Source of the DNA: a virus
DNA: 30,883 nucleotides
Strand: one strand, 5' to 3'
IMG/VR virus record: IMGVR_UViG_3300029915_001626
Coordinates: 1-30,883 of that record
Shown piece by piece: positions 2,778 to 16,464 of the stretch. The notes under the pieces are model-generated. The model worked only from the letters and a program-made list of their open reading frames with translations, searched no databases and was not told where the DNA came from. Both the position numbers and the translations under genes were made by a program. Within the stretch, counting starts at the first letter, position 1; every line of letters starts with the position of its first letter.

Positions 2778-3725
2778 CTAATTCTGCAAAGCGGGTTCGG
2801 GGCTGGCGGCCACGCTGTCGCGGATCTCGCGGATCGCGGCCATGAGGCGGCCGATGGAGATGGACCGCTGGTTGCGCTTGTCCACGCGCACGGTGATGGT
2901 GGCCAGCTCTATCTGCTGGCGGATGGTGGCGGCATCGAGCGAGTACTCGGCCAGTTCGGTGCGCAGAATGCCGGCGGCCTCGTCGGCGGTGAGCGCGGGC
3001 AGGTGCACCTTGTCGGTGATGCGGCGCTGGAGCTGCTCAAGGGTTCCAGAGAAATCGTTGAAGGTCTTCTCCAGCTCGTGCGATCCGGCAAAGATCAGCG
3101 AGAAGCGCGGCTCTTCGTCGAGCAGCTCACGTACCGTCTCAAAAGCGGGAATACTCAGATGCTGCGACTCGTCGAAGTAGAGCACCACGCGCGCCCCGCG
3201 AAAATCCCAGCGCAGATTGTGGATGGCGCGGTCGATGGCCGTGCTGGAGTGCGCGCCGCAAGCCGTGGCTACGCGCTTCATCAGATCGCGAGGGCAGATG
3301 CGGGCGCGGCAGTAGATGCGGAAGATGTAGCTGGGCTGCCCGGCGCTCTGGGCGTTGTGCTCTGCGATCAGGTGGCGCGCCACGTCGGTTTTGCCCGAGC
3401 CCGGAGGCGCATAGACCATATAGACCTGGGGGCGCTCCAGCGCTTTGTGGAAGAGGCTGCGCATCGTGCGCACTGTACCGGTTTCATAGATCTTGGTGGT
3501 AAGTTCGTCGGCGGTGATGGGGTTGCCTTTGATGAAGGCAAGAATCGCGGCATTGATCTGGTCGGCTTTGGCGATGCGGCTGTAACGACCGCAAAGGTAT
3601 TGCGCCACGGTGCTGTAGTTGTAGCCGATGCGGATCGCGAAATCTTCCGACGACATGCCAGAGCGGCGCAGGTAATCGGTTACGAGCGGACGAAGATCGG
3701 CGGTGGTGTTGGCGAGTTGGGTCAC
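2778..3725 (-). CDS. B: MuB-like AAA+ ATPase, transposition target selector
   Basis: This ATPase should coat target DNA, recruit the MuA transpososome and provide target immunity. Residues 1-65 form an N-terminal helix-turn-helix domain (SSEDFAIRIGYNYSTVAQYL), as in MuB. The AAA+ core follows: Walker A APPGSGKT at 106-113 (K112) and Walker B VVLYFDES at 180-187 (D185, E186). A sensor-1-type strand FSLIFAGSHEL lies at about 208-218 and paired arginines R234-R235 near the arginine-finger region. The 315-residue length agrees with Mu B (312). The ATG overlaps the MuA stop by 4 nt, so A and B should be made at linked levels. Key catalytic residues are present and it looks functional. Confidence 0.93.
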   Translation of the reverse strand: MTQLANTTADLRPLVTDYLRRSGMSSEDFAIRIGYNYSTVAQYLCGRYSRIAKADQINAAILAFIKGNPITADELTTKIYETGTVRTMRSLFHKALERPQVYMVYAPPGSGKTDVARHLIAEHNAQSAGQPSYIFRIYCRARICPRDLMKRVATACGAHSSTAIDRAIHNLRWDFRGARVVLYFDESQHLSIPAFETVRELLDEEPRFSLIFAGSHELEKTFNDFSGTLEQLQRRITDKVHLPALTADEAAGILRTELAEYSLDAATIRQQIELATITVRVDKRNQRSISIGRLMAAIREIRDSVAASPEPALQN

Positions 3726-5776
3726 TTTTTGAGTCCCTCCCTGAAGAGTCGAGCGGCTTCCGCCGGTGTGGCCGGCGCTGTGATTGCTGATGTGGATTGC
3801 AGTTTGGTGGATTGCGGGCGATGGACGACAAGCTGCTCAATATCGATAGGCAGACGGCCGAGCTGGAGCATTTGATTGTGCTGCGGCATGTAGCCGGTGC
3901 CGAGTACGCGGCGACCCAGATCGTTGAGCTGATCGCGCGTCTCGTGGTAACGGTGCTGGCGCTCGCGCATACTGGCGGCGATGGCCTCTTGCGTCTCATC
4001 GTCTCGGGATTGGCGTAGAAAGTTTTCCGGCTCCAGGTAGGCGAAGACACAGCCGTCTTCATCAATCGCCGCCAGGGCATTGAGGTCGAGCGGATCATAG
4101 GCCACGATGATCTGTTGCCCGGTGCGATCATGCAGCGCCCGCTGGCTGGGCTCATCCACGCCGACGAAGCGGCGATTAGCCATTTTCACGGCGCACTCGT
4201 GAACAATGCGCAGAGCGCGCTCAGCCAGCAGCGAGGCCAGGATGTGCGGCTCAGGAGCAGGCTTGGAGCCGCGCCAGCGAAACTTCTCGAATGCCTCGTT
4301 GGGCGAAAGGCCTTCCATGCCCGGCACATTTTTGGGCCGCAGGTTATATTCCTGCTCGATCCAGAGTGTGGCGGCGCGGATGAATTCGCTGGCCAGGGGC
4401 AGTTCGGATTCGTCGGCGCGGCCCTGGGCTAGCAGTTTCTTGTGCCGCTCCAGCGCGGCCGTGCAACGATCGGGGCGCTGTTCGAAGGTCGGCCCGCAAT
4501 AGGTCGCCCAGCGGCGGTCGAAGCTCTGGTGGATGATGTGGTTGGCGGATTCGATCAGTTTCGACTGGCCATGATAGGGCTGGCAGAAAGTAACCCTGCA
4601 ACCCAGCCGCGCCAAAACGCCCTGCGCTTCTGGCGGTAGATATTCCACTTCAGGGCCGCGCGCACCTTTGCCGACCTTGAGGTAGTCCTTGCCGTTGTCG
4701 CAGTAGAACTCGCGGAAGGTGCCATAGGTTTCGAGCATGTGGCGCAGGCAAGTATTGATCGAGCGCGAGGAACCATCCTGCGACCAGGCATAGGCGACAA
4801 ACTTGCGGCTGCGCATGTCTTGAAGGCCAGTGAACCGGAGGCGCAGGTGTTGACGGTCTTTGGCGTCGAAGAGATCATTCTGCACCAGCACGTCGTGCCA
4901 GGCGTGGTCGCTGACGACGATCTCGCCCGCCTCGAAGTCGGTGTAACCGCGCCGGACGTAAGGCGCGAAGAGGTCGTCGTATTTGTCGCGGCCTTTGAGG
5001 GCTAGCGTCTTGACGGCTGGGGGCAGCTTCTCCAGGTAGGTGCGCAAGGATTCATAGCTGGGCGGCTCAATCTGAAGTTGCTTGGCTCGGCAGACCACAA
5101 TTTCCCAGACCATCTTCTTGTTGAGTTGCTCGTGCAGGAAAGAATATGCAGCGAGATCTGCCAGCTCCCTGTGCTGCGGCGTTTGTTTGGTCCAACGTGC
5201 AATTCCCTTGTCAACTCTTACGAAGTCAGCCAGGGCGGCGAAGCCGCCTTTCCGATACCTTGATAGCCAGCTTTTCAATGTACGAATGCTGACAGGCTGC
5301 GGATTGCTGGCGGCAATATGCTCCACGAGTCGGCTAAGCGACGTGACGGGCCGTCCATCCGGCAGCCGCAGATAGACAAGCCGTTCGGCGTTCTGGTGGT
5401 GATCGAGGAGTGGTTGAATCACCGAGAAACGATACTCGGCTTGCCTTTGGGCCTCGGGACTGGGCAGAATCACCCTCTGCAATCGATCAGCGGGCACATT
5501 GGCAAAGAGCGGGCCAAAGCTGGCGTCTGGCGGCGGGACTATCGCAAGCTGGGTTTGCGGCGCAGTCTGGGGAAGTGAGGCTGCGAGGTATTCGCGTTGC
5601 GGCTTGCCATTGGAGGATTTCTTCGCAGATGGCCGACTGACAATATCACCGAGTTGCGCCTTCATGCGCAGCCAGCGTTCAGTCCAGCCAGATATGGCTA
5701 CTGCTTCTGCCAACGTGAGCCACTGCTCGGACGCCCGAGGAACCATAGCGAGTTGCTGTGCGGCGGCGGCACTCAT
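3722..5776 (-). CDS. A: MuA-like DDE transposase
   Basis: This enzyme would bind the phage ends, nick them and join them to target DNA for integration and replicative transposition. The N-terminal region (about 20-60, TLAEAVAISGWTERWLRMKA) is a winged-helix DNA-binding domain. About 140-260 holds further helical end-binding domains (SIRTLKSWLSRYRKGGFAAL). The RNase-H-like core has D290 (EIVVSDHAW), D360 (FYCDNGKDY) and E409 (SKLIESANH), spaced 70 and 49 residues, close to Mu A D269/D336/E392. A beta-barrel domain follows, and the C-terminus has the helical region expected for MuB contact. Length 684 versus 663 in Mu. All catalytic residues are present. It overlaps both neighbouring genes by 4 nt. 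Confidence 0.95.
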   Translation of the reverse strand: MSAAAAQQLAMVPRASEQWLTLAEAVAISGWTERWLRMKAQLGDIVSRPSAKKSSNGKPQREYLAASLPQTAPQTQLAIVPPPDASFGPLFANVPADRLQRVILPSPEAQRQAEYRFSVIQPLLDHHQNAERLVYLRLPDGRPVTSLSRLVEHIAASNPQPVSIRTLKSWLSRYRKGGFAALADFVRVDKGIARWTKQTPQHRELADLAAYSFLHEQLNKKMVWEIVVCRAKQLQIEPPSYESLRTYLEKLPPAVKTLALKGRDKYDDLFAPYVRRGYTDFEAGEIVVSDHAWHDVLVQNDLFDAKDRQHLRLRFTGLQDMRSRKFVAYAWSQDGSSRSINTCLRHMLETYGTFREFYCDNGKDYLKVGKGARGPEVEYLPPEAQGVLARLGCRVTFCQPYHGQSKLIESANHIIHQSFDRRWATYCGPTFEQRPDRCTAALERHKKLLAQGRADESELPLASEFIRAATLWIEQEYNLRPKNVPGMEGLSPNEAFEKFRWRGSKPAPEPHILASLLAERALRIVHECAVKMANRRFVGVDEPSQRALHDRTGQQIIVAYDPLDLNALAAIDEDGCVFAYLEPENFLRQSRDDETQEAIAASMRERQHRYHETRDQLNDLGRRVLGTGYMPQHNQMLQLGRLPIDIEQLVVHRPQSTKLQSTSAITAPATPAEAARLFREGLKK

Positions 5777-6647: not shown

Positions 6648-6676
6648 ATAATATCGATGGTCGATGTTAGTGTCAA
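6648..6676 (-). promoter_or_regulatory. Early promoter Pe, sigma70 type
   Basis: On the minus strand, TTGACA (6676-6671) is a perfect -35 box. A 17-nt spacer (6670-6654) and TATTAT (6653-6648) follow, five of six matches to the -10 consensus. Initiation would fall at 6641 or 6640, the first base of the HTH gene's ATG. One putative operator copy covers the spacer edge and the other lies just upstream of the -35 box, so repressor binding would block polymerase. This is the only strong consensus promoter I found in the window. Confidence 0.85.
6654..6665. promoter_or_regulatory. Putative operator O1 (TCGATGGTCGAT)
   Basis: First copy of a 12-bp motif, TCGA-N2-GTCGAT, lying in the spacer of the early promoter and covering the repressor's own start codon (6657-6659). 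The second copy begins 31 bp away, about three helical turns, so bound dimers would face the same side of the DNA. It is probably the binding site of the XRE repressor, the small HTH protein, or both. Confidence 0.55.
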
Positions 6677-7181
6677 GAAAATAATCGAAAGTCGATCTGC
6701 GCCTGATTCTATCCCCGCCAGAATTAAGGCATTTAGAAAACGTCTAAAGATGGATCAAACCGTTTTAGCTGAAAACCTTGGCGTGAGCCAGGGAACTATT
6801 TCCGAGTGGGAAAAAGGGGATCACCCTCCTTCACCGATGGCGTTGATGGCGATTGGTCGGCTGGATGAGGATGCGATGTGGTGGTACGAGCAGGCTGGCC
6901 CTCGATTCGCGGAAAGCCTCAAAACAGGGCGATTGATTCAAGAAGTCCGTGCTGAACGGAAAGAGGGAAAGGCAACGGATCCAGAACTATTGGCAAGGGT
7001 GCTTGAGGCGGTCGATGCAGCGATGAATCTGAAGGGAGGCTTTTTCCCAACAAAAATCCGGGCGGGGGTAATCGCTGCGGTCTATGATGATTGGCAGAAG
7101 ACAGGGTTGCGCGACAGTGCGATCATCATCCGGCTGCTAAACGAAGCGCTTCACCCATCGAACCGGAAAGTGCGGACATGA
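6657..7181 (+). CDS. XRE-family phage repressor (174 aa)
   Basis: A cI/c-type repressor expected to hold the early promoter off in the lysogen. An XRE helix-turn-helix lies at about 20-67 (ARIKAFRKRLKMDQTVLAEN then LGVSQGTISEWEKGDHPP), with SQGTISEW as the recognition helix. The C-terminal half (about 95-174) is helical and would serve oligomerisation; no peptidase S24 Ser/Lys motif is visible, so it is not an obvious self-cleaving LexA type. I start at the ATG at 6657 because GAGGAG sits 10 nt upstream; the open frame extends further 5' but into the divergent gene. The DNA is AT-richer than its surroundings (45% GC in 6661-6720), a sign of separate origin. Its stop overlaps the next ATG. Confidence 0.85.
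   Translation: MVDVSVKKIIESRSAPDSIPARIKAFRKRLKMDQTVLAENLGVSQGTISEWEKGDHPPSPMALMAIGRLDEDAMWWYEQAGPRFAESLKTGRLIQEVRAERKEGKATDPELLARVLEAVDAAMNLKGGFFPTKIRAGVIAAVYDDWQKTGLRDSAIIIRLLNEALHPSNRKVRT
6685..6696. promoter_or_regulatory. Putative operator O2 (TCGAAAGTCGAT)
   Basis: Second copy of the 12-bp motif, identical to the first at 10 of 12 positions. It lies 9 bp upstream of the early promoter's -35 box and inside the 5' end of the repressor coding region. Paired sites around a divergent promoter are the usual arrangement for phage repressors; the assignment here is inferred from position and repetition. Confidence 0.5.
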
Positions 7182-7756
7182 TGGCAGGATTCAGCTTCAA
7201 CATCAGAACCGAGTATGAACCTGCGCCGCTTTCAATCCAGATGACCGAGCAAGTTCTTCGTTGGGATGGGTTCAATTCTGTAGATTCGGCCCCTATCATT
7301 GCGAGGAAAATTCTCGATTTCGTCACAGATGGTGCGACGGAAAGAGATTTCATGCGATGGCGCGAATCTGAAGAGGCGCATCCTTGCGCCGCACAGTTAT
7401 CGAAGGAATGGGCACAACTGCTCTTCCGTAGCTTGGCATTAGCTACCTACTCTCATCATCAACACACAATGCTCCCTATAGATCCTGAGATATTTCCTTT
7501 TCTGGAATACGCATCAGCGACAACATACTGCAAGAAACATGCGTCTCTTGATGGTTATATTGCTCGCCCTGACGATCCGATCTGGAACGATATATACCCT
7601 CCGAATGGATGGGTCTGCGGGTGCTCTGTTATGCCCATCATGGCGATGGATGTTCCACCACGCAAACGTATAGGCAGACCGATTCCCGAGGCATTAAGGC
7701 TTCAATGTGTAAACTGGCTCCATATTAGACCGGATCACATCTTAAAATTGCTATGA
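7178..7756 (+). CDS. Second MuF-domain protein behind the repressor (192 aa)
   Basis: The start ATG at 7178 overlaps the repressor stop (ATGA), so the two are co-translated and likely made in the lysogen. From about residue 40 to 160 it aligns along the MuF head-morphogenesis domain of the gene at 15634: ILDFVTDGATERDF against LAETLAKGGTRDDF, then HASLDGYIARPDDPIW against HAALDGFCARAIDPVW. YPPN, a Cys-x-Cys pair (C147, C149) and SVMPI match YPPN, CRC and SVIPI. The usual CRC is CGC here. It lacks the N-terminal half and C-terminal tail of the structural protein. MuF proteins are internal capsid proteins that bind portals, so a prophage-expressed copy could interfere with head assembly or DNA entry of a superinfecting relative. 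That role is inference. Low GC (40% in 7441-7500). Confidence 0.75.
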   Translation: MMAGFSFNIRTEYEPAPLSIQMTEQVLRWDGFNSVDSAPIIARKILDFVTDGATERDFMRWRESEEAHPCAAQLSKEWAQLLFRSLALATYSHHQHTMLPIDPEIFPFLEYASATTYCKKHASLDGYIARPDDPIWNDIYPPNGWVCGCSVMPIMAMDVPPRKRIGRPIPEALRLQCVNWLHIRPDHILKLL

Positions 7757-7797: not shown

Positions 7798-7819
7798 CGC
7801 CGCGCCCCCCTGCGCGGCG
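7798..7819 (+). other. Perfect 8-bp GC hairpin
   Basis: CGCCGCGC (7798-7805) pairs with GCGCGGCG (7812-7819) around a CCCCCT loop, about 40 nt after the MuF-paralogue stop. No T-run follows, so it is at best a weak intrinsic terminator. It may protect the 3' end of the repressor message or separate it from the structured region that follows. Confidence 0.55.
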
Positions 7820-11999: not shown

Positions 12000-12704
12000 A
12001 TGCCCAAGCCCAGGCCAAAAACCGGAGAACGCCGCTCTGTGAAGCAGCCGCTCAAGATTGATCGGCTGCCGCAGAGCGCGCAGGATGCGATCAAGCTGCT
12101 CTATGATCGCGGCCGGACCTGGGTAGAGATTGCCGAGCAGTCGGCGCGGCCCTATAGCGCGGAGTGGGAAAAGGACGCCGGCGGCTTTATCGATTGGGTC
12201 CAGGTCGAGACGGATGACCTCGACCTCTTCCCCGGACTGTGCCTGGCGAAGTCAACTCTGCAACGCTGGTTTGACTTGCGGGTTTCGCAGGTGCGCGCGC
12301 AGGTGCTGGCCGAGAGCGCCAAGGCCCGCGAGTGGGCGCAGGCTTTTGCCGGCAATGACCTGGCGGGTTCAAACGCCGCCGTGATGAACGCCATGCGCGA
12401 CCAGGTCTTTACCTTGATGCAAAAGGTTGGCCCCGGCGACCAGGCGAAGTTTCTTGAGGGGCTGAATCTGCTCTCGTTGACCTTGTCGCGCTTGCAGCGC
12501 GTCGAACTGCAAGCCAAGCGAGTGGAAGTAGACCAGCGCAAGATCAAGATTCTGGAGGACCGGGAGAAAATGGCCCGGGAGAATCTTGACCAGGCGACTC
12601 AGCAGGCGGCCAAGAAGGGCACGGGTCAGTTCTCCCTGGAAGACATCAATCTCCTACGCGAGCGCACCTTTGGGCTGCCCCCTTTGGTGATCGCCCATGA
12701 TTGA
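12000..12704 (+). CDS. DUF3486 protein, Mu gp27-like small terminase (234 aa)
   Basis: Mu gp27 homologues act as the small terminase subunit that recognises phage DNA for headful packaging. A basic N-terminus (MPKPRPKTGERRSVKQPLKI) is followed by a first HTH (LPQSAQDAIKLLYDRGRTWV), then AKSTLQRWFDLRVSQVR, the second DNA-contact helix typical of the family. From about 95 to 200 there are long helices for oligomerisation. The protein ends with ERTFGLPPLV. An insert at about 45-75 (SAEWEKDAGGFIDWVQVETD) makes it longer than Mu gp27. It overlaps the terminase start by 8 nt. Confidence 0.85.
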   Translation: MPKPRPKTGERRSVKQPLKIDRLPQSAQDAIKLLYDRGRTWVEIAEQSARPYSAEWEKDAGGFIDWVQVETDDLDLFPGLCLAKSTLQRWFDLRVSQVRAQVLAESAKAREWAQAFAGNDLAGSNAAVMNAMRDQVFTLMQKVGPGDQAKFLEGLNLLSLTLSRLQRVELQAKRVEVDQRKIKILEDREKMARENLDQATQQAAKKGTGQFSLEDINLLRERTFGLPPLVIAHD

Positions 12705-14166
12705 GGTTCTCGATCACAAGATCCAGATGCCGGCCGTGTTGCAGATGCGGCCCTATCAGCAGCGCTGGATCGACGACAATACTCGATTCAAGTGCGCCGT
12801 CAAGTCGGCGCGCATCGGCTACTCGTTCGCCACCGCATATCGCCGCGTCGAAATCTCGATGCGGGTGCCTGGGCGCACGACGACGGTGCTCAGTGCATCG
12901 AAGGCGCAGTCGGTCGAATTCGTCGAGACAGCGGCGAAGCTCTGCGAACTGATGGGCGGCACGGCGCGCATGGTGGCCAACGAGGACTTCGTTGACGCGG
13001 TCGGACGTATCGAAGCCATCCAGAGCAAAATCACTTTCCCGAATGGCAGCCGCATCATCGCTCTGCCGGCCAACCCGCGCACGGCGCGCGGCTATCCTGG
13101 CGACGCGGTGCTCGACGAGTTTGCTCACCATGAAGACAGCTACGCGATCTTCGCGGCCGTCTTTCGCCAGGTGGCGCTGGGCAACAGCCTGGAAGTGCTC
13201 TCGACGCCCAACGGCGAACAGGGTAAGTTCTTTGACATTGCGCGCAACCTTGGCCTGGCCGACGGCGTGGCTCCATCCGTTTTGCCTGTGAAAAAGGACG
13301 GCTGGAGCGGCCACTTTGTGGATGTGTACGCCGCCGTGGCCGAGGGCTGCCCCATCAACATCGAGGAGATGCGGCGCGGCCTAAACGATGACGACACCTG
13401 GAATCAGGAGTTCTGCTGCGTTTTTCTCAAGTCAACAGGCGCATGGCTGACGCTGGATCTGATTGCGGCTTGCGAGGACAATACGCTCGACGCAAAGCTC
13501 ATCCAGATCGGTCCGGGTTCGTATACTTCCGCGCTTCTTGATCCGCGCTTTAATCCACGCGGACCTTTGTTCGCCGGAATCGACGTTGGGCGTGATCATG
13601 ATGCCACATGCCTCTGGCTCGATGAGAAGATCGGTGATGTCGCCTATACGCGAGGCGTTTTCTGGCTTTACAACATCACATTTCCGAATCAGGATGCCGC
13701 GCTCAATCCTATCGTGCGGTTGTGCAGCAGGGCAGCGATCGATAAAACCGGCATGGGCGTTGGCCTTTATGACTTGCTCAATGTAACGAACGCCGGACGC
13801 CTGCTCGGGGTGAGCTTCGGTGGAACCAATGACAACGGTGTGCGAATGAAGACGGACCTGGCGATCCGGATCAAAAAGCGCTTCGAACAGATGCGCTCTC
13901 GCATCCCCTATGACGGCCGTATCCGAACCGAACTGCAAGCGATCAAGCGTCAGGCCACTTCGACGGGCGTAACCTTTGATGCTCCGCGAATCGAAATCGA
14001 TACGGCCGTCGCCGGCGGAGGAAAGAAAAAGTCTACCGCTCACGCCGACGTATTTTGGGCCAAAGCGCTGGCCGACATGGCCGCCGATGACGGTATCTGC
14101 ACACTCGATGGCGTCGAAGTCTCCGCAACGCCCACATCTTCTTCGCAACTGAAAGGGTATCTGTAA
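12697..14166 (+). CDS. Terminase large subunit, Mu gp28-like (489 aa)
   Basis: The packaging motor and headful nuclease. ATPase: KSARIGYS at 36-43 replaces the standard Walker A. As in related Mu-like terminases the P-loop is degenerate, with R39 as a possible substitute for lysine. Walker B is AVLDEFA at 137-143 (D140, E141), and the coupling motif LSTPNG lies at 168-173. The RNase-H-like nuclease has D296 (FAGIDVGRD), D349 (AIDKTGMG) and D451 (AHADVFWAKALA), all intact. The start overlaps the small terminase end by 8 nt, and the stop abuts the portal gene with a 1-nt overlap. Length is normal for the family. Confidence 0.93.
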   Translation: MIEVLDHKIQMPAVLQMRPYQQRWIDDNTRFKCAVKSARIGYSFATAYRRVEISMRVPGRTTTVLSASKAQSVEFVETAAKLCELMGGTARMVANEDFVDAVGRIEAIQSKITFPNGSRIIALPANPRTARGYPGDAVLDEFAHHEDSYAIFAAVFRQVALGNSLEVLSTPNGEQGKFFDIARNLGLADGVAPSVLPVKKDGWSGHFVDVYAAVAEGCPINIEEMRRGLNDDDTWNQEFCCVFLKSTGAWLTLDLIAACEDNTLDAKLIQIGPGSYTSALLDPRFNPRGPLFAGIDVGRDHDATCLWLDEKIGDVAYTRGVFWLYNITFPNQDAALNPIVRLCSRAAIDKTGMGVGLYDLLNVTNAGRLLGVSFGGTNDNGVRMKTDLAIRIKKRFEQMRSRIPYDGRIRTELQAIKRQATSTGVTFDAPRIEIDTAVAGGGKKKSTAHADVFWAKALADMAADDGICTLDGVEVSATPTSSSQLKGYL

Positions 14167-15632
14167 TGGCCGATCAACAGACGCAAGCCGTTCCTCCGCT
14201 GCCGCCCACCGGCGAGATGATCTCGACGACCAGTCTCTATATGCAGCAGATCTCGCTCTACCGGAATACCCAGGCGTTCGGCGGCTCGCGCAATCCCTCG
14301 GAAATCTGGTCGGCAATGACCTTTAACATGCCGCAGACGATGGCCTACTTCCGCGAGCTGGAAGAGAAAGACGAGGACGTGAGCAACGCCCTCGACACGC
14401 TGAAACTCTCGGTGCTGGAGCGTGATCGCAGCGTGTTGCCGGCGCCGCGCGACGAATCGGCCCTGGCTCAGGAGGTGAAGGAATTTGTTGAAGCGGAGCT
14501 GAGCAAGCTCGACTTTCACGCGATTCTCGATTGTGTGCTCGATGCGCCTGGCTATGGCTTCAGTGTGCAAGAGATGATCTTTGACACCAGCATGGGGCAG
14601 GCCTCGCTGGTAGACATCAACGATTGCCCGCAGGAGTTATTCCTCTTTGGCAACCGCTTCTATCCGCAGGTTGGCCCGCTGCAACTGCTCGATAACCCCT
14701 GGGCCGCCGAGGGAACGCCGGTCCCTGAGCAGAAGTTTCTGATCTACAGCTATCGCAAGCGCTCGCGCAACCGCATGGGGCGTCCGCTGTTGAAGAGCGT
14801 CTTCTGGCCAAGCTGGTTCAAACGCAACATCCAGCGGATGTGGATGCAATATGCCGAGAAGGGGCCGGGCACGGCCGTCGTCCATTACAACGACGCGGAC
14901 AATAAGTCAGAGCGTAAGCAAGCCGTAGAAATAGCGCAAGCTCTGATTGAGAATGTGGCCGTTGCGGTGCCCAAGGGCTTCGAGTTTGAGCCAGATCTGC
15001 TGAAGATTGCGCGTTCACAAGATCCGCGCGTTTATACGACCTTCTTTCAGACGATGCAATATTCCATCATCCGCCGGATACTGGGCGAAACGCTGACCAG
15101 CTTTGGCAATGAGGGTGGTGGCGGATCGAAGGCGCAGGGAGATACCCACGCCGATACACTGGATCAGCGCTCGGTGGAGCTATGCCGCAGTTTGCAGTCG
15201 GTGGTCAATCGCCAGCTCATTCAGCCTCTTGTACTCTGGAACTTTGGCCCTGCCGCCCCGATGCCGGTTTGGCAGTTTGACTTGGAAGAGGCAGAGGATC
15301 TGGAGCTGCGCCTCACCGTTGACAGCGGCTTGCAGCGCATGGGCAAGAAACTGACCGTTGGCTATGTCTCAGATCGCTACGACATCCCGCTGACCAAGAG
15401 CGAAACCGAAGATGAGGAGCTGGTGCCCAACGTGAATGCGCCTACCGTGGCCCTGCGCGATACCACGTCTTCGTCTTTCAGCGAATCGAATCGCCGCACC
15501 AAGCTGGCCATGAACGCGGAGATGGAGCAATACGACAGGATGTTCGGTCAAATGCAATCGGAAGCCGAGGAGATTTTCCGCCAGCGTGTGCGCCAGGTTG
15601 CGGCTACAGCGGTAGCGCCGAAGGAGCAGTAG
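14166..15632 (+). CDS. Portal protein, DUF935 / Mu gp29-like (488 aa)
   Basis: Portal ring at the head vertex through which DNA enters and leaves. Typical features are DVSNALDTLKLSVLERDRSV (about 77-96) and the wing/stem segment FHAILDCVLDAPGYGFSVQE (about 119-138). YRKRSRNRMGRPLLKSVFWP then WFKRNIQRMWMQYAEK follow, the usual long basic helix leading into the stem. The later domain RILGETLTSFGNEGGGGSKA has the flexible glycine loop of the family. The C-terminal 80 residues (about 410-488) are acidic and glutamine-rich. It starts on the last base of the terminase stop and is followed by MuF after 1 nt. Confidence 0.92.
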   Translation: MADQQTQAVPPLPPTGEMISTTSLYMQQISLYRNTQAFGGSRNPSEIWSAMTFNMPQTMAYFRELEEKDEDVSNALDTLKLSVLERDRSVLPAPRDESALAQEVKEFVEAELSKLDFHAILDCVLDAPGYGFSVQEMIFDTSMGQASLVDINDCPQELFLFGNRFYPQVGPLQLLDNPWAAEGTPVPEQKFLIYSYRKRSRNRMGRPLLKSVFWPSWFKRNIQRMWMQYAEKGPGTAVVHYNDADNKSERKQAVEIAQALIENVAVAVPKGFEFEPDLLKIARSQDPRVYTTFFQTMQYSIIRRILGETLTSFGNEGGGGSKAQGDTHADTLDQRSVELCRSLQSVVNRQLIQPLVLWNFGPAAPMPVWQFDLEEAEDLELRLTVDSGLQRMGKKLTVGYVSDRYDIPLTKSETEDEELVPNVNAPTVALRDTTSSSFSESNRRTKLAMNAEMEQYDRMFGQMQSEAEEIFRQRVRQVAATAVAPKEQ

Positions 15633-15633
15633 C

Positions 15634-16464
15634 ATGGTCTTCGGCCTCACCTCTCATGAGCAGGTAGCGCAGGCGCGCCTGGGCGACCTGCTCACCGAGC
15701 ATCTGGCCGCCACCAACCTGCTAGGCCGTCTGCATGTCGCCCGCTTTGGCCTGATGAAAACCAAGCGTCCCGTGCGCCTGGCGACCAGCTTTGGCCCATC
15801 GCGCACTTTCGCCGAAGACGACATCCAGGGCGATACGCTCAACGTCGGCTTTAGCTTTGAGCTGCCTCCCACGGGCGCGGTCAACTATCTGCGCAATCTG
15901 ACGCCGGTGACCCGCGATCTTTTTGACGGGCTGACACGCCACTACCAGAACGATGCCTTCACCATCGCCGGGGTCAGCGATCAGAGACTGATCGCCAAGA
16001 TCCGCGACGCCTTGGCCGAGACGCTGGCCAAGGGCGGCACACGCGACGACTTCCACGCGGCGGTTGACGAGTTATGCAGTGAAGCCGGTGTGCAAAAGCT
16101 GGCGGCCTTCGATCTGGATACCGTCTTCCAGACCAATGCAGGCAAAGCCTACAGTGCCGGCCGGCTTGAACAGATGCGCGAGCCGGGTATGATGGAGGCG
16201 CTGCCCTATTGGCAATACTGGACCGTGGGCGACTTGCGGGTGCGCCCGGCTCATGCGGCGCTGGATGGTTTTTGCGCGCGGGCCATTGATCCGGTCTGGC
16301 TCAAGATTTATCCGCCCAACGACTATAACTGCCGCTGCTCGGTGATTCCCATTTTGCCCGAGGATGCGCCCGAGGGAAGCGACGAAGGTGGCCTGGAACG
16401 GCTGCCGCTATTGGCGCGTCTGGGTGTGCCCCGGCCCGGCTTCCACACGTTGACTAGTTTGTAA
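15634..16464 (+). CDS. F: MuF-like minor head protein, Mu gp30 (276 aa)
   Basis: Internal head protein bound to the portal, needed for head assembly. After a short N-terminal helical region (1-40) it carries the MuF domain. The marker segment is V203-R-P-A-H-A-A-LDG (about 203-212), with DPVW (219-222), YPPN (226-229) and the CRC pair C233/C235, followed by SVIPI. Length is shorter than Mu gp30 because the N-terminal part is reduced. It is preceded directly by the portal gene and followed by the second copy of the 58-bp element. The protein at 7178 is a paralogue of its C-terminal two thirds. Confidence 0.9.
   Translation: MVFGLTSHEQVAQARLGDLLTEHLAATNLLGRLHVARFGLMKTKRPVRLATSFGPSRTFAEDDIQGDTLNVGFSFELPPTGAVNYLRNLTPVTRDLFDGLTRHYQNDAFTIAGVSDQRLIAKIRDALAETLAKGGTRDDFHAAVDELCSEAGVQKLAAFDLDTVFQTNAGKAYSAGRLEQMREPGMMEALPYWQYWTVGDLRVRPAHAALDGFCARAIDPVWLKIYPPNDYNCRCSVIPILPEDAPEGSDEGGLERLPLLARLGVPRPGFHTLTSL

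Follow-up and report, generated by a model that had tools for sequence, protein, structure and literature searches.

Phage genomes usually carry muf genes close to their packaging genes, and nearly always a single one, with 614 muf genes counted in 611 genomes and a portal or terminase gene nearby in about 85% of cases (Jamet et al. 2017, PMC5576092). The encoded MuF proteins load at the portal, and delivery on infection has been proposed for them (PMC6316719, PMC5576092). In phage SPP1, the MuF protein gp7 binds the portal. Assembly proceeds without gp7, and only about 25% of the resulting virions are infectious (PMC6316719); the title of a reference cited there describes gp7 as DNA-binding. 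Accessory genes are known from another part of phage genomes, behind the repressor, where prophages usually carry genes that defend the host against other phages. In the transposable phage Fc02, accessory gene e4 lies downstream of repc on the lysogen transcript (PMC9936078), and bstA of phage BTP1 is transcribed from the cI promoter, in a kind of region where morons such as rexAB are often found (PMC7067206). Tab and Tai, both encoded by prophages or satellites, block virion assembly (PMC10884400, PMC11364771). Here, we describe a MuF paralogue encoded directly behind the repressor of a Mu-like phage. Searches of the open-access literature returned no MuF gene described from an immunity region, and a second MuF in this place appears to be undescribed; the MuF domain and the repressor-linked slot are known, and the proposed mechanism is potentially new.

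The window (the whole stretch of DNA analysed, 30,883 nucleotides) is a 30.9-kb IMG/VR virus record (IMGVR_UViG_3300029915_001626) of a Mu-like phage, transposable because it encodes a Mu-type transposase (3722..5776, minus strand; phrog_310, E = 5e-70), with an AAA ATPase in the MuB position (2778-3725, minus strand). The plus strand encodes the repressor (6657..7181; HTH_3, E = 1e-10; C-terminal domain common to relatives), the 192-aa MuF paralogue (7178..7756; alternative ATG start at 7181), and a phage lysozyme (8250..8684; Phage_lysozyme, E = 6e-37), which forms the right-hand border of an accessory slot. Further on lie the large terminase (12697-14166), a Mu-type portal protein (14166..15632, plus strand; Portal_Mu, E = 5e-70), and, directly after the portal gene, the canonical 276-aa head MuF (15634..16464, plus strand; PF04233, 71 bits; phrog_220, E = 4e-47). 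The paralogue therefore adjoins the repressor, not the portal and packaging module, and lies outside the head-MuF gene position. Portal relatives in GTDB were mostly in metagenome-assembled genomes (MAGs) of Acidobacteriaceae and other Terriglobia, many from bog or palsa, so that Acidobacteriaceae are most likely the host group.

A first-pass annotation of this DNA had called the gene a MuF paralogue, and its coordinates, length, overlap with the repressor stop, and quoted motifs (H121-x2-LDG, DDPIW, YPPN, and C147-G-C149) are all correct. For the paralogue, BLASTP against the phage's own head MuF gave an E value of 2e-14 at 30% identity across 124 aa, and the local alignment score was 136, compared with at most 50 in 500 shuffles; the match to phrog_220 ("minor head protein and DNA pilot") had an E value of 8e-14. 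The PF04233 (Phage_Mu_F) search that the annotation had proposed fell on either side of the threshold, at 29.0 bits with hmmscan, just below the cut-off of 29.6, and at 30.0 bits, above it, in a genome search; relatives of the paralogue scored 24.4 to 41.7 bits (the highest in L075), and all six paralogues (window plus five phages) matched phrog_220. Judged by these comparisons, the paralogue is a genuine MuF homologue, sharing with the MuF/SPP1 gp7 family (PF04233, TIGR01641, and phrog_220) a homologous core with H-x2-LDG, DP-x-W, PPN, and CxC. The annotation's further statement that it aligns along the structural MuF holds from head-MuF residue ~70 onward, where the paralogue begins (GFSF), and fails for the N-terminal ~70 residues, which are absent. 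Homology to the head MuF was strong at paralogue residues ~106-160 and weak, at profile level, at residues 41-101 (hhalign probability 40%, E = 3e-4); no sequence-level homology was found in the first ~40 residues except the common GFSF start. The C terminus, ~35 residues beyond the MuF core, is a tail of its own that differs from those of head MuFs. GC content is 0.48, compared with 0.60 for the window.

The residues H, LD, P-x-W, PPN, and CxC are invariant across the six paralogues and also present in head MuFs, and this signature is the best-conserved stretch among the paralogues. Conserved features specific to the paralogues are the C-terminal tail and Cys118, which stands at position -3 of the motif histidine in all six, a position taken by arginine in the aligned head MuFs; C118-x2-H121...C147-G-C149 (window ~7529-7624) is a possible metal or zinc site. 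The first-pass annotation had also read the change from CRC to CGC as a potential loss of structural function, an argument that we dropped because PPNGWxCGC is frequent in likely head MuFs, with dozens of examples among MuF proteins 250-600 residues long. Searches of Pfam, PHROGs, NCBIfam, and PADLOC returned no toxin or other extra domain, and identity as a MuF polymorphic toxin was ruled out by the lack of a C-terminal toxin domain. There was no defence-database match, and the HExxH motif of an ImmA-like peptidase, as might stand behind a repressor, was not seen.

An AlphaFold model of the paralogue (pLDDT 68.5, pTM 0.54) places helices ahead of a small sheet that includes the CxC strand, and a model of the head MuF (pLDDT 52), too weak for superposition, has the same order of elements. 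The top viral structural matches of the paralogue model were mainly "phage head morphogenesis" proteins (TM ≤ 0.54). Element order and viral matches support a MuF-like fold and fall short of proof. No sequence relative was found among solved structures, and VIA-align returned generic helical matches only (best Z 7.5, to Nab2), which were uninformative.

Relatives were collected by three routes. L041 was found via its repressor (71% identical to that of the window); the paralogues of L041 and the window, used as queries, led to L043 and four contigs (L044-L047) that are identical across the compared 4 kb; and a DNA pattern for PPNGWxCGC gave L115/L064 and L075. The paralogue lies behind the repressor, directly or one gene on, in six distinct phages, the window and five others, so the linkage to repressors in relatives on which the annotation had staked its proposal is borne out. 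It follows the repressor directly in the window and L044, a 125-aa exported protein in L041 and L043, an ORF6C-domain protein in L121/L115, and an S24 (LexA-like) repressor fragment in L075, and the neighbouring repressor types differ among the six phages. A separate full-length head MuF is encoded by all six. In the tree, the paralogues form their own clade (UFBoot 83 with six members, 99 with five once L121 is left out), and the head MuFs of these phages fall outside it.

The gene is rare, as ~400 genomes of the host order contained no paralogue and only head-type MuFs (open frames of 261-324 aa). A scan of GTDB contigs for the paralogue found nothing. Its frequency is not readable from the counts of carriers, since the five beyond the window were found via the paralogue or repressor. 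Similarity to the paralogue was found at 236 places in the phage collection, each in a different record, so that none of the 236 records had two. Both phage-database matches that were opened were head-module genes; of four plasmid matches opened, three were annotated structural MuFs next to portal or terminase genes and one was unannotated.

The slot between repressor and lysis gene varies in content among phages of the group. Twelve slots fetched without regard to the paralogue held exported proteins of the 125-aa type, small membrane-like proteins with a CxxC start, secreted proteins, and D12 adenine methylases, and a MuF paralogue in none. The place of the paralogue is an accessory slot of variable content, behind the repressor in Mu-like phages of Acidobacteriaceae. 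Compared in 60-nt blocks, L041 and L043 have a DNA identity of 0.92-1.00 over a segment that begins a little way inside the 3' end of the repressor gene and closes ~50 nt beyond the MuF stop; in the flanks, identity is mostly 0.3-0.7. The paralogue proteins are 96% identical, whereas the repressors are 40% identical and 59% of synonymous sites differ between the head MuFs. Similarity between L041 and L044 runs from 12 nt before the paralogue start to 63 nt after its stop. Because similarity is confined to the paralogue block while repressors and head MuFs have diverged, these alignments indicate that the paralogue moves as a sharp-edged cassette, independent of the repressor or head of its own phage. 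Its open frame is intact in six lineages at identities down to 36%, and dN/dS, read only where synonymous changes were unsaturated and differences not too few, was 0.23 for L041-L044, a value by which the paralogues are under purifying selection.

The repressor stop and paralogue start overlap as ATGA, within a joint (GGAAAG-7 nt-ATGATG; 7165..7181, plus strand) that combines a Shine-Dalgarno-like sequence with the overlap and lies inside the last repressor codons (PSNRKVRT); because of the overlap, the paralogue is probably translated by coupling to the repressor. The joint (window 7160-7183) recurs as a GGAAAGTGAG-like repressor end in most repressors of the group, namely those of L041, L043, L044, L022, L030, L010, L075, L134, and L139. 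It is found in two unrelated repressor C-terminal types, in reading frames that differ by type, and gives the next gene a Shine-Dalgarno-like sequence; it looks like a shared joint at which accessory genes are interchanged by recombination and provided with ribosome binding. A predicted early promoter (TTGACA-17-TATTAT, 11/12; 6648..6676, minus strand) is divergent to the repressor. Paired TCGA half-sites, ATCGATGGTCGAT and AATCGAAAGTCGAT, lie at this promoter (6648-6696) and overlap the repressor start, with similar sites in L041, and are likely operators. A strong GC-rich hairpin of 8 bp follows the paralogue (7798..7819, plus strand; z -2.7); it has no U-tract and was not called by terminator prediction, and it is a possible end of the lysogenic transcript.

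Our leading reading, held tentatively and at somewhat short of an even chance, is that the paralogue is a lysogen-expressed accessory (moron) gene derived from a head MuF, most likely protecting against superinfecting Mu-like phages by MuF mimicry. Sequence establishes the homology, position, conservation, mobility, and selection of the gene; its expression, its interference with phages, and the target are inferred. A descendant of a head MuF gene, having come to occupy the slot directly behind the repressor, would be produced in the lysogen by translation coupled to the repressor. Its product could engage one of the real MuF's partners (portal vertex, DNA, or MuF itself) yet fail to do the job of that protein, because the MuF core is kept and the N-terminal ~70 residues are absent. 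Progeny of superinfecting Mu-like phages would then show lower infectivity or ejection; induction would shut off the repressor transcript and so spare the phage's own heads. From the position behind the repressor, expression in the lysogen and a part in superinfection are plausible (PMC9936078, PMC7067206); mimicry is a guess, since the head-MuF N terminus is absent and contact with the portal may be made by that or another part. The first-pass annotation had suggested poisoning of head assembly, which is doubtful as worded, since SPP1 assembles without gp7 (PMC6316719). Because few of the virions so assembled are infectious, infectivity or ejection would be a likelier target than head assembly, unless MuF is essential in this group, and the effect could be modest, gp7 not being needed for assembly. 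The fullest version of this idea is superinfection immunity through a mobile, truncated MuF paralogue that is produced in lysogens alone and that, by imitating the head protein of related phages, disrupts their portal-vertex or ejection step; we consider it less likely than not.

Interference with other phages has to be weighed against a host-directed or other lysogen function, in which the MuF fold would be reused as a stable, possibly zinc-binding scaffold. Such a function fits the position of the paralogue as well as phage interference does, the slot elsewhere holds exported proteins and methylases, and Cys118 would complete a possible C-x2-H...C-x-C metal site absent from the head MuFs aligned here; we nonetheless consider it unlikely, as there is no second domain, no non-phage function of MuF is known, and the MuF signature is the best-conserved part. 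The paralogue could instead be a second minor head protein of its own phage, packaged or ejected, that helps lysogeny to become established or blocks later comers from inside the newly infected cell. Loading of MuF proteins at the portal and their proposed delivery (PMC6316719, PMC5576092) and the retained core motifs would suit this role, which is made distinctly improbable by a gene placed in the repressor transcript outside the late module, swapped between phages independently of the head MuF, and devoid of the N-terminal part.

The stop-start overlap also brings to mind a repressor partner or modulator, e.g., a DNA-binding or sensor subunit tuning induction, since repressor-peptidase pairs also show such overlap. 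A DNA-binding subunit would agree with the reference title that describes SPP1 gp7 in those terms (in PMC6316719), but near-identical copies serve repressors that are 40% identical, one copy stands behind an S24-type repressor, another gene intervenes in L041, L043, and L121, and a peptidase motif is absent, so we give this role little credence. That the gene is a non-functional remnant of a duplicated MuF gene, as its truncation relative to the head MuF and low GC content might suggest, is largely refuted and hardly credible, given open frames in six lineages down to 36% identity, a dN/dS of 0.23 where measurable, and conservation of the unique C-terminal tail and cysteine.

The position of the paralogue resembles that of lambda rexAB, BTP1 bstA, and Fc02 e4, as a variable gene directly behind the repressor on the same strand; those genes, as far as known, are not derived from a phage structural gene, and expression of the paralogue in the lysogen would be presumed from its place. 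If the paralogue acts against superinfecting phages, as we favour, it would share with Tab and Tai a block on infectious virions of other phages. Those proteins act on tail assembly, whereas interference by the paralogue would be MuF-based; Tab has no similarity to proteins of known function and is encoded in the late operon, between terminase genes. From MuF/SPP1 gp7 itself, the paralogue differs in not lying beside the portal gene, in its missing N terminus, its own C-terminal tail, and its lack of a toxin domain, and in having cysteine, not arginine, before the motif histidine. A protective paralogue would amount to a defence made out of components of the phage's own virion, tied to the repressor in a way that would shut it off on induction. 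It would also offer a handle on the enigmatic MuF core, since one could ask which part of the MuF surface has to be retained for a truncated copy to interfere. Without a protective role, it still documents reuse of MuF beyond the head module, along with a mobile accessory slot in Acidobacteria phages, a poorly known group.

An exported or membrane-anchored protein of ~125 aa, with no assigned family, is encoded in L041 (8528-8905), L043 (566-943), and L013 (2443-2820), and L010 and L139 encode small exported proteins that resemble it. The ~125-aa protein stands in the slot alone or before the MuF paralogue and is a candidate superinfection-exclusion protein. D12-class adenine methyltransferases occupy the post-repressor slot in L134 (3090-3872) and L135 (1999-2889), related prophages of which one is in a beta-proteobacterial and one in an Acidobacteriaceae MAG.
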